35,419 nucleotides of DNA from IMG/VR virus record IMGVR_UViG_3300025674_000158, positions 1 to 35,419 of that record, one strand, 5' to 3'. The stretch is from a virus. The translations under genes and the position numbers were made by a program. Positions 11,699-14,358 of the stretch are shown piece after piece. The number at the start of each line of letters is the position of its first letter. The stretch's first letter is position 1. The notes below the pieces were generated by a model. It did not search any database. It was not told the DNA's origin and saw nothing but the letters and a program-made list of their open reading frames with translations.

Positions 11699-11875
11699 AT
11701 GTTAGGAAAGATGGTATTTGATTATTTATTTGATGATGAAGTTATGGACGAGCTTGTCGATGGTATCAATAAAGAGGTTAATATCCCGCTACTTTCAGAA
11801 TCTTCAGAAGAAAAGGCTATTCGTGCTTTAATAAATCTTTTGAAATTAGTAATGGGAAAGAGACTTGGTGTTTGA
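11699..11875 (+). CDS. 58-residue hypothetical protein in the lysis region
   Basis: A short gene of 58 residues, starting MLGKMVFDYLFDDEVMDEL and ending LKLVMGKRLGV. It is preceded by TAGGAGAA at a proper distance. Its stop overlaps the endolysin start by 8 bases, so endolysin translation is probably coupled to it. It is acidic and helical, with no membrane segment. Similar small soluble proteins occur beside phage lysins, but no function is assigned. Confidence 0.65.
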   Translation: MLGKMVFDYLFDDEVMDELVDGINKEVNIPLLSESSEEKAIRALINLLKLVMGKRLGV

Positions 11876-12371
11876 AGACTTATCAGATAAGGATTTAAAT
11901 GTTTGGTTTGACTCTATAGAGTTTGTACTAAAGCATGAGGGCGGTCTATCCGATCATCCTGATGACAAAGGTGGCTTAACTAATTTTGGTATTAGTCAGA
12001 GAGCATTTCCTGACTTAGATATCCGCAATCTTTCAGAGGAAGATGCTATGCAGATATACTATAAGAAATATTGGTTACGCTACAGGATTAATGAGTTACC
12101 TCCATACATCCGTAAAATGGTTTTTGACGGAGTTGTGAATATGGGTGGAGGTATGATTAAAGTACTTCAAAGAACCACTAATAGAAAAGGTGCAAAGCTA
12201 AAGGTTGATGGTCGCATTGGTAGAAAAACAATTAGTGCGGTTAGATACTACAAGCCTGAAGTTGGCAGAGTAAAAGCCTATAGGGTTAAACACTATGTTG
12301 ACCTCATTAGACGCAACCCAAAACTTGAATCATTTTATTTCGGTTGGTGGAACAGGACAGTTGCTATTTAG
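11868..12371 (+). CDS. endolysin, GH108 family N-acetylmuramidase
   Basis: 167 residues from the GTG at 11868 (GGGAAAGAG lies 5 bases upstream; a TTG at 11865 is the alternative). The sequence near the N-terminus, KHEGGLSDHPDDKGGLTNFG, is the hallmark of glycoside hydrolase family 108, with Glu24 of the EGG motif as the expected catalytic acid. The C-terminal half carries the peptidoglycan-binding-like stretch KVDGRIGRKTISAV. It cleaves the glycan backbone of host peptidoglycan at the end of infection. No signal peptide is present, so it should need a holin for export; two candidate membrane proteins lie just upstream. Confidence 0.9.
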   Translation: MFEDLSDKDLNVWFDSIEFVLKHEGGLSDHPDDKGGLTNFGISQRAFPDLDIRNLSEEDAMQIYYKKYWLRYRINELPPYIRKMVFDGVVNMGGGMIKVLQRTTNRKGAKLKVDGRIGRKTISAVRYYKPEVGRVKAYRVKHYVDLIRRNPKLESFYFGWWNRTVAI

Positions 12372-12403
12372 TATGCCTTAGAGTTAAATTATATCAAGTC
12401 GAG

Positions 12404-12419
12404 TGACAGGAAACTGTCA
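12404..12419 (+). terminator. hairpin with GAAA tetraloop after the lysis genes
   Basis: A perfect 6-bp stem, TGACAG / CTGTCA, encloses a GAAA tetraloop and is followed by an A/T-rich stretch with only a short T run. It lies 33 bases after the endolysin stop and probably helps to end or stabilise the late transcript. Confidence 0.4.
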
Positions 12420-12460
12420 ATTTAAAATGATATGTGTTATCACTTTCATTTGTTTGTTAG

Positions 12461-12486
12461 GAAACCCCGCGGTAATGTGGGGTTTC
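12461..12486 (+). terminator. terminator-like hairpin
   Basis: An 8-bp stem, GAAACCCC / GGGGTTTC, with a 10-base loop, followed by TGCTTTAG. The U-tract is poor, so termination may be partial. It is the second hairpin after the late operon and shields the attachment region from late transcription. Confidence 0.5.
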
Positions 12487-12505
12487 TGCTTTAGTTAATG
12501 TTTTA

Positions 12506-12524
12506 GGAACACAATGGGAACACA
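12506..12524 (+). repeat. left integrase arm-type sites (two GGAACACA copies)
   Basis: GGAACACA occurs at 12506-12513 and at 12517-12524, exactly 11 bp apart, on the left of the tRNA-like core. Together with the matching copies on the right side they form the expected layout of arm-type sites for the N-terminal domain of a tyrosine integrase. Binding is inferred. Confidence 0.6.
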
Positions 12525-12550
12525 AAATAATCAAACTTTGAGGGTAGGTT

Positions 12551-12577
12551 AGGGGTTCGAATCCCTCCCCCTCCACA
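12551..12577 (+). other. attP core, copy of a tRNA 3' end
   Basis: The stretch contains the T-loop signature GGTTCGAATCC followed by CCCCTCC and a discriminator-like A, the 3' arm and acceptor strand of a tRNA (expected 5' partner GGAGGGG, compatible with a serine tRNA). No 5' half of a tRNA precedes it. The 5' strand of the T stem (AGGGG against CCCTC) has a mismatch and a wobble, which suggests that identity to the host tRNA begins only within the T stem. It is 330 bp from the integrase stop and flanked by arm-type repeats, so it is the likely phage attachment site. The exact crossover cannot be placed without the host. Confidence 0.75.
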
Positions 12578-12590
12578 CTACATAGAGAGA

Positions 12591-12616
12591 GCCTCCTCGC
12601 AAGGGAGGCTTTTTTT
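12591..12616 (+). terminator. strong rho-independent terminator directly after the tRNA-like core
   Basis: Stem GCCTCC / GGAGGC (12591-12596 with 12604-12609) with a 7-base loop, followed by seven T. It reads rightward. After integration it would end transcription of the reconstructed tRNA gene, and it also blocks read-through toward the integrase from the late operon. Confidence 0.85.
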
Positions 12617-12648
12617 ACGATCTATTCTACCTCAATGTACCATATTCG

Positions 12649-12678
12649 GGAACACAGGGGTAACACATACGGAACACA
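12649..12678 (+). repeat. right integrase arm-type sites (three copies at 11-bp steps)
   Basis: GGAACACA at 12649-12656, GTAACACA (one change) at 12660-12667, and GGAACACA at 12671-12678, each 11 bp apart, thus on the same face of the helix. They mirror the pair on the left arm in direct orientation. Confidence 0.65.
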
Positions 12679-12744: not shown

Positions 12745-12933
12745 ATGAAAATAGTAACAATAATACTAATTATGTCCTTGTTGAGTTACAATTCTAACTT
12801 AGAAACATATGAGTTAGTATGCAGAGACGGAAAGAAGCATGAGTATTTTTTCAAGCCTGATAGTAGTGGAGACTTCCAATGCCTGATACATTGGGAACAG
12901 GAGTCTCTACAAATTGTTGAGAAGAATTTCTAG
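12745..12933 (+). CDS. small putative secreted or membrane-anchored protein
   Basis: 62 residues. The N-terminus MKIVTIILIMSLLSYNS has a positive start and a hydrophobic core, like a short signal peptide or anchor. The mature part has two Cys (ELVCRDG and DFQCLIHW) that could form a disulphide. AGGGGAA lies upstream of the start. It converges on the integrase gene and overlaps its end by 27 bases. Being outside both main operons and next to the attachment site, it could be a lysogenic-conversion or superinfection-exclusion protein. That is inference from position only. Confidence 0.5.
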   Translation: MKIVTIILIMSLLSYNSNLETYELVCRDGKKHEYFFKPDSSGDFQCLIHWEQESLQIVEKNF

Positions 12934-13902
12934 TTCTTTTGAACCCGCATGGATATAGTTATCTACTGCGGTGGAGTGATGCCCTGTGATTCTTTTAATA
13001 TCTGATTCTTTGTAACCTGACCTAGATAAGTGAGTAGCTACTGAATGACGAATGGCATGAAAGTCGGTTTCAATATCCCGTTCTTTCATCATTGCTTTAT
13101 ACCTAGCTAAGGATTGACGTTGCTCATATTCAGTTGGACAAACCATAACCGCTACATCAGGGTTATCTTTAAATTCTTTAGGTAACCCTAGCGGTATTGG
13201 TTCAGATGTCTTTCCCTGATACTTACCCTGAACAATATCATTTAATGTTAATGTCCCCGCATCATGTCTACGCAATAAAGTGTAGAGCATTATGCTCCAA
13301 TAGATACGATCTTTTTCATTCGGTGCATTTTTAATCACATCTTTTATATATCTTAGGCTAATTGGTCTACGTTTTTTAGTAGGTTTAGCACTCGGTAAAA
13401 AGCTCTTAGGGAGGTTGTCAAAAAGGGGTATACCCAAGTATGCCTTATTGATACAAAACTGAAGAAATTCGCGGACACATAAAAGATAATCCCTTGCGGT
13501 CTTATTTGCGTAGTCTTTTAATAAGTATGTTTTGTAATCTAAAAGAGTAGATGCAGTTAATTCGCGTATAATTAAGTTAGGTCTGCAATAATCTATAAAT
13601 TTATTTATTTGTAATACTTGTTTCTTGTAATGAGATTCGGGTCTAGCTCTGCCGTTTGTGTCCTTACCCTTTTTATATTCAATATGTTTTACCCATTCAT
13701 CTTTTGCCTGAGATATTGACATAGGCATTATTGTTTGCTCTAATCCAATTTTAGTTCTAGCGAATGCTATATCTAATTCAGATTGTAAAGTTTGAGCTAC
13801 TTGTTTATTTGTAACTCTTAAGCTAACTCTTACAGAATCAGGTCTGCTCGGTCTTCCCCTATGGTAATACCAAACAGAACCACGTTTGACTAGAGAGCTC
13901 AA
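12907..13902 (-). CDS. int: tyrosine recombinase integrase
   Basis: 331 residues. An N-terminal arm-binding-like region (1-50, GSVWYYHRGRPSRP and following beta-prone residues), a SAM-like core-binding domain (about 65-165), and a C-terminal catalytic domain (about 175-331). Visible catalytic residues are Arg211/212 (TLLRRHDAG), His282 and Arg285 (HAIRH), His308/309 (TGHH) and the nucleophile Tyr316 (DNYIH). It should insert phage DNA at the tRNA-derived core at 12551-12577. Translation seems to begin with TTG overlapping the regulator stop (TTGA), so it is coupled to the HTH regulator, an economical lysogeny operon. The second motif, HDAG in place of the common GE, is slightly unusual. Confidence 0.95.
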   Translation of the reverse strand: MSSLVKRGSVWYYHRGRPSRPDSVRVSLRVTNKQVAQTLQSELDIAFARTKIGLEQTIMPMSISQAKDEWVKHIEYKKGKDTNGRARPESHYKKQVLQINKFIDYCRPNLIIRELTASTLLDYKTYLLKDYANKTARDYLLCVREFLQFCINKAYLGIPLFDNLPKSFLPSAKPTKKRRPISLRYIKDVIKNAPNEKDRIYWSIMLYTLLRRHDAGTLTLNDIVQGKYQGKTSEPIPLGLPKEFKDNPDVAVMVCPTEYEQRQSLARYKAMMKERDIETDFHAIRHSVATHLSRSGYKESDIKRITGHHSTAVDNYIHAGSKELEILLNNL

Positions 13903-14267
13903 TGCTTTATCATTTTTTTTGCTTTAGCTTGATAAGCATTGGTTAGCATCCATTCAAGAAGTAAATCAATTTCTGTGTTTTGAGATGCAACCCTCTCTAG
14001 TTTTTTTTCAAGTAGAGCTATTTTTTCTTTCTGTAGTTTGATAATGTAATCCTTGTCTTGTAATTGATTGTCTAACATTTTTTCTCCTTTACCTCCATTG
14101 CCTAGTTTCTCAAGTTCAATTTCAATAGCTCTCTTTGGAGATCGTCGTCCGCTTTTCCAAGAGAGTATAGAGTGTGAAGAAACACCGAGAGATTCGGCTA
14201 GTTGTTTATCATTCCATCCGTATATGTTTTTAACGGAATCAATAAGATTTGTTATATTGCTACCCAT
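13899..14267 (-). CDS. HTH (XRE-type) regulator, probable lysogeny repressor
   Basis: 122 residues from the ATG at 14267, chosen over upstream in-frame codons because GGGAGAGGGGAA stands directly before it. Residues about 18-48 (WNDKQLAESLGVSSHSILSW) form a helix-turn-helix of the XRE/Cro-C1 kind. Residues about 65-110 form a charged coiled coil that may dimerise it. There is no self-cleavage (LexA/S24) domain, so induction would not follow the classic RecA route. It is divergent from the gene at 14404 across an operator-like region and shares a transcript with the integrase. It probably represses the rightward early promoter. An activator role cannot be excluded. Confidence 0.85.
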   Translation of the reverse strand: MGSNITNLIDSVKNIYGWNDKQLAESLGVSSHSILSWKSGRRSPKRAIEIELEKLGNGGKGEKMLDNQLQDKDYIIKLQKEKIALLEKKLERVASQNTEIDLLLEWMLTNAYQAKAKKMIKH

Positions 14268-14329
14268 TTCCCCTCTCCCCCCCTTATTTTTATTAACACA
14301 TTTGTTATGCACAAAGTACAAAACATATC

Positions 14330-14358
14330 TTGACATAAACAATACTTATTTGTACTTT
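14330..14358 (+). promoter_or_regulatory. sigma70-type promoter for the rightward early operon
   Basis: TTGACA at 14330-14335, a 17-base spacer, and TACTTT at 14353-14358. It is the best box pair in the region and points to the gene at 14404. A transcript would start near 14365. The -10 box is covered by the inverted repeat at 14350-14368. Confidence 0.6.

Follow-up and report, generated by a model that had tools for sequence, protein, structure and literature searches.

Introduction

The attP of phage lambda holds five arm sites, and lambda integrase contacts arm sites with its N-domain and core-type sites with its core-binding and catalytic domains (excerpt of PMC4880445). As in the locus described here, two of the lambda arm sites (P1 and P2) lie on one side of the core and three (P'1 to P'3) on the other, next to int. 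By our own reading of the fetched lambda sequence, three sites stand in tandem, 10 and then 11 bp apart; these are presumably P'1 to P'3, and the record's own label "int 4" adjoins them. In the P arm of lambda, the two sites face opposite ways, at a distance of about 32 bp according to the record's labels, whereas all sites in our locus are direct and 11 bp apart within each arm. The lambda attP core is not a tRNA, whereas ours reads as a tRNA 3' end.

Mycobacteriophage Pixie (cluster K3) has, according to an excerpt of PMC3203893, a tRNA core with a left pair and three right-hand sites, all direct, as in our locus. The Pixie word (GGGTACAC) is unrelated to ours, however, and its spacing by our measurement is 12 bp on the left and 13 and 14 bp on the right; the same excerpt reports a sixth, inverted site, whereas our locus has five. 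In cluster K1 (CrimD, Anaya, and Adephagia), base changes in the arm sites among close relatives are described together with integrase N-domain substitutions at positions 17 and 19 (PMC3203893, in excerpt). Those attPs differ from ours in having four sites, with one pair inverted, and a tmRNA core, and the arm words of Adephagia are mixed, whereas each of the four sister phages reported below has a uniform word (same excerpt). The attP of ICEMlSym-R7A also has five arm-type sites, all needed for efficient integration, but its word is TGKTGGTATC and the element is a different one (PMC11963761, in excerpt). Since the arm-site and N-domain variation of K1 and the direct two-plus-three array of Pixie have already been reported, the kind of attP described here is already known. 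Attachment sites of this kind are indeed well known, which makes our locus ordinary when viewed alone. Among the matches listed by a literature search of partial coverage, there was no paper on these phages.

Results

Five repeats flank a tRNA-like core

We analyzed a virus record of 35,419 bp (the whole stretch is called the window). The array of repeats sits between the convergent genes of an endolysin (11865 to 12371, + strand) and an integrase. Offsets in the following list are counted from the start of the T-loop, and sisters are the four related phages described below.

12460 to 12487, +: terminator-like hairpin after the endolysin gene, upstream of the left arm (consensus scan)
12506 to 12513, +: putative left-arm integrase site 1, GGAACACA, exact match; offset -49 (sisters, -48 or -47)
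12517 to 12524, +: putative left-arm integrase site 2, GGAACACA, 11 bp from site 1; offset -38 (sisters, -37 or -36)
12552 to 12576, +: probable attP core, GGGGTTCGAATCCCTCCCCCTCCAC, read from the sequence as a tRNA T-loop plus 3' acceptor strand (sisters, 3' end of another tRNA at the aligned position)
12583 to 12617, +: terminator-like hairpin with a T-run in the gap between core and right arm; fold of -20.3 kcal/mol, z of -6.1
12649 to 12656, +: putative right-arm integrase site 1, GGAACACA; offset +94 (sisters, +95 or +96)
12660 to 12667, +: putative right-arm integrase site 2, GTAACACA, one mismatch; offset +105 (sisters, +106 or +107)
12671 to 12678, +: putative right-arm integrase site 3, GGAACACA; offset +116 (sisters, +122 or +123)
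12907 to 13902, -: tyrosine integrase, 331 aa, TTG start (PF00589, 3.1e-10; PF13102, 3.3e-05; phrog_1 integrase, 3e-25)
13899 to 14342, -: CI-like repressor with HTH (PF07022, 1.9e-04; 22.1 bits against a cutoff of 22)

A preliminary description of the locus had reported five directly oriented repeats, one with a single change, two to the left and three to the right of a tRNA-like core and 11 bp apart within each arm. Its coordinates and spacing proved exact: GGAACACA occurs at 12506 and 12517 on the left and at 12649 and 12671 on the right, GTAACACA lies at 12660, all five are on the + strand, and the step inside each arm is 11 bp. The core is tRNA-like as described: 12552 to 12576 reads as a tRNA T-loop followed by the 3' acceptor strand, and it is the probable crossover region. 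ARAGORN found no full tRNA anywhere in the window, as expected if the core holds the 3' part only. None of 200 shuffles folded as well as the hairpin at 12583 to 12617, which is absent from the output of the consensus terminator scan. With one mismatch allowed, two IHF-like sites were found against a shuffle mean of 1.02, which is not clearly above the shuffles; one of these matches, at 12529, falls between the left arm and the core. Past the right arm, toward the 3' end of int, lies a reading frame of 62 aa (12745 to 12933, +) whose start is hydrophobic; the sisters, in which int stops immediately past the right arm, leave no space for it.

There are only four perfect copies of GGAACACA on both strands of the 35,419 bp. 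With one mismatch allowed, we found 17 copies in the whole window against 22.8 expected. The octamer is thus not overrepresented, and the signal lies in clustering and phasing. Between 12372 and 12906, GGAACACA was the best tandem word, with three pairs at the same spacing (11 bp); among 2,000 dinucleotide shuffles of this stretch, 1,894 gave no same-spacing pair, 106 gave one, and none gave two. Other tiles of the window with at least two same-spacing pairs held the low-complexity words TCATCATC, TCGTCATC, and GTTTGTTT, and one further tile word, CAGGAACT, recurred with a 9-bp step near 7.7 to 8.3 kb.

The PF00589 match of the integrase exceeds the cutoff, placing a tyrosine recombinase gene beside the probable attP. 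The protein carries RRHDAG at 211, HAIRH at 282, GHH at 307, and DNYIH at 314, which we take to be the catalytic positions. It has core-binding and catalytic domains and would also have an N-terminal arm-binding domain. The portal protein is P22/SU10-like, so the phage is probably a podovirus. We saw no prophage form of the window phage.

Sister phages keep the layout and change the word

Searching with the integrase alone gave no confirmed relative in viral contigs (three peptide-pattern stretches, none confirmed) and no relative among annotated phages, and searching phages with the window attP DNA found nothing. Sisters were reached only through the portal protein, which led to 23 viral loci. 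An integrase 37 to 39% identical to that of the window was present in four of these records (G030, G032, G033, and G039); many of the 19 without a match are short fragments. Both a profile of the five integrases and a pattern made from the sisters' core returned the same four records only.

All four sisters have an attP beside int, with two repeats to the left and three to the right, all direct, around a core (AAGGGTTCGAATCCCTCTCTCTCCAC) that is the 3' end of a different tRNA from that of the window. The offsets were as follows.

Window: -49 and -38 left; +94, +105, and +116 right
G030, word TGTCCG: -48 and -37 left; +96, +107, and +123 right
G033, word TGTCCG: -48 and -37 left; +95, +106, and +122 right
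G039, word TGTCAG: -48 and -37 left; +96, +107, and +123 right
G032, word TGTCAC: -47 and -36 left; +96, +107, and +123 right

Within each sister the word is identical at all five sites, and it varies between sisters, as it should if a single protein recognizes every site. The repeat word of the window has no clear alignment to the sisters' words. The six-letter words are not confined to the array: counting the five array sites, the loci have 5, 7, 8, and 6 + 1 copies over about 5.9 kb, so that three of the four loci have extra copies outside it, and G033 has the word once more at +202. Comparison with the attPs of related integrases, which the preliminary description had proposed as a check, thus found the layout kept in 4/4 sisters and the word changed at all five sites.

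One part of that description, namely, that the spacing is more regular than usual, was not supported. By our reading, the steps are 10 and 11 bp in the lambda P' arm, 12 bp and then 13 and 14 bp in Pixie, and 11 bp on the left with 11 and 16 bp on the right in the sisters, where the last right-hand step is 16 bp instead of the 11 bp of the window. As 16 bp is about 1.5 turns, stacking of the integrase on one face of the DNA, which that description put forward as a possibility, is no conserved requirement.

A natural switch of the arm word

The integrases of G030 and G039 are 98% identical, differing at 5 of 312 residues (Y12H, K23R, V204I, D227A, and R231K). Y12H and K23R fall in the predicted arm-binding N-domain, and the other three lie elsewhere. 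From G030 to G039, the arm word changes from TGTCCG to TGTCAG, with C to A at 5/5 sites (-40, -29, +104, +115, and +131). The two attPs have 22 alignment differences between -60 and +140, five of which are these changes. Lysine at residue 23 accompanies TGTCC in G030 and G033, and arginine accompanies TGTCA in G039 and G032. The residue aligned to position 23 in the window integrase is R, but the alignment is uncertain here and the word of the window is not alignable.

The full-length integrase model was poor (pLDDT of 57). For the first 58 residues of the G030 integrase, AlphaFold predicted strands at residues 2 to 7, 10 to 15, and 22 to 28 and a helix at 31 to 48 (mean pLDDT of 76). Arm-binding domains are described as having a strand-strand-strand-helix order (excerpt of PMC8138268). 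The model shows the same order and would place residue 12 in strand 2 and residue 23 in strand 3. DUF6538 matched 4/5 integrases weakly, below the cutoff in the one member shown. Comparing the N-domain model with solved structures gave no convincing match and listed no arm-binding domain, which is not in itself a sign of a different fold.

Separately, the G030/G039 pair (loci L169 and L170) loses its likeness a short way upstream of int, from about +1072 onward relative to the core: these near-identical sisters have 271 alignment differences between +1080 and +1500 against 40 between +140 and +1080, a range covering int. The divergence looks like a swapped immunity region.

The octamer in other records

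The bare pair GGAACACAnnnGGAACACA occurred in at least 119 stretches in viral contigs; several of the pairs inspected resemble coding sequence by eye. PF00589 matched in 1 of 16 records tested (14 behind these loci and 2 others), namely, G013. A pattern seeded with the window's own word, requiring a T-loop 55 to 85 bp upstream of the pair, occurred in 2 viral and 13 genome stretches. By title, 11 of the 13 genome stretches are from Bacteroidota; the others are from Streptomyces and "Candidatus Kutchimonas." An ARAGORN tRNA (Asn, Pro, Met, or His) overlapped the match in 10 of the 13 but not at L125, L133, or L135, and a backward control pattern was absent from the 13 matched genomes. A simple motif search found no integrase-like frame in the 14 loci L124 to L137. 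In a same-order sample of 119 genomes, the pair occurred in the center genome only and the backward-read control pattern occurred in two; we therefore do not claim GGAACACA as a widely shared arm word or code.

Some of these loci resemble attachment junctions. The G013 record (IMGVR_UViG_3300017589_000096, 24,954 bp; loci L092 and L010) apparently includes an integrated element's two junctions. Near both of its ends it repeats a terminator and a tRNA 3' end resembling that of the tRNA-Pro in L126, and inward of each lies a GGAACACA pair with an 11-bp step (+77 and +88 at one junction and -147 and -136 at the other, around tRNA-like cores). Its 441-aa integrase hardly aligns with that of the window (best local E value of 0.015). 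In Paludibacter sp. 221, two contigs each carry a tRNA-Pro junction sequence (L188 and L190), one with a GGAACACA pair after the core (+72 and +83) and the other with a pair before it (-145 and -134), both at 11 bp; they are possibly, but not necessarily, the two ends of one element. L134 (Streptomyces sp. ISL-98) has a tRNA-His, a hairpin-like stretch, and then a GGAACACA pair at 11 bp, possibly an attachment junction with the same octamer outside Bacteroidota. The virus contig L102 has, at about 1570 to 1870, nine copies of GGAACACA in one orientation and, by a count made in L102, three in the other, all within about 300 bp. The array recurs in L023, L097, and L114, with a PF00589 match in none of the four records; it may be an origin, or an attP whose integrase escaped detection.

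Host

None of 296 sampled genomes, all Bacteroidota, had a tRNA gene carrying the window core. Shine-Dalgarno-like words of at least four letters precede 16 of the 34 window genes (a raw count, without a shuffled control), a weak hint against a Bacteroidota host. The tRNA-Tyr gene of L122 has the same 25 bases as the window core at its 3' end, and the tRNA-Ser of L121 shares 23 of the 25. The core would fit tRNA-Tyr, and we offer both matches as leads only.

Discussion

The stretch is very probably the attP of a temperate phage, with the five GGAACACA repeats (one altered) as arm-type sites of its integrase, as the preliminary description had proposed from their lambda-like two-plus-three layout. 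That layout and the concerted change of word in 4/4 sisters support this reading. It is very improbable that the repeats are instead bound by a directionality factor (Xis/RDF) that assembles head to tail into a filament, each helical turn providing one site. Direct tandem repeats about one turn apart would suit such a filament, which has been proposed for RdfS by likeness to BldC (PMC11963761, in excerpt), and the window phage has no assigned excisionase. The 16-bp step to the sisters' last site does not suit a filament, however, and the arm word differs between two sisters whose integrases differ at five residues, two of them in the N-domain. Moreover, RDF sites usually lie on one side of the core, whereas these repeats flank it on both.

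Repressor operators or another regulatory array lying beside the core by accident would be an even less probable explanation. A CI-like repressor gene is close to the array, and promoter-like matches flank it (12403 to 12431, +; 12731 to 12704, -), but such matches are about as frequent in the region as chance predicts (10 against 8.4 expected). The array flanks a tRNA-like core between two convergent genes, and four sisters share its layout, which also argues against operators. Chance clustering is the least credible of all: although the octamer with one mismatch is not overrepresented in the window, the lack of any shuffle with two or more same-spacing pairs and the conservation of the layout in relatives already refute it.

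Taking the repeats as integrase arm-type sites, the neighboring tyrosine integrase would exchange strands at the tRNA 3'-end core with a matching host tRNA gene. Its small N-terminal beta-sheet domain would bind the repeats, for which the joint change of arm words and N-domain residues gives indirect support, and its core-binding and catalytic domains would bind core-type sites within the tRNA-like core. DNA bending would bring core and arm sites together, and the two-plus-three arms may let each integrase link an arm site to a core site. Which arm sites are occupied may decide between integration and excision, the two sets probably being different.

As a tentative and rather doubtful proposal, residue 23, which lies in strand 3 of the predicted arm-binding sheet, may read the fifth base of the site, lysine going with TGTCC and arginine with TGTCA; one or two substitutions would then retarget the integrase, and the five sites would follow. 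Four phages, two of them close, are insufficient to prove such a code. If it is true, co-resident relatives would be insulated from each other's integrases. What the comparison adds to the known attachment sites is a clean natural case for testing how five arm sites and their integrase remain matched while both change.
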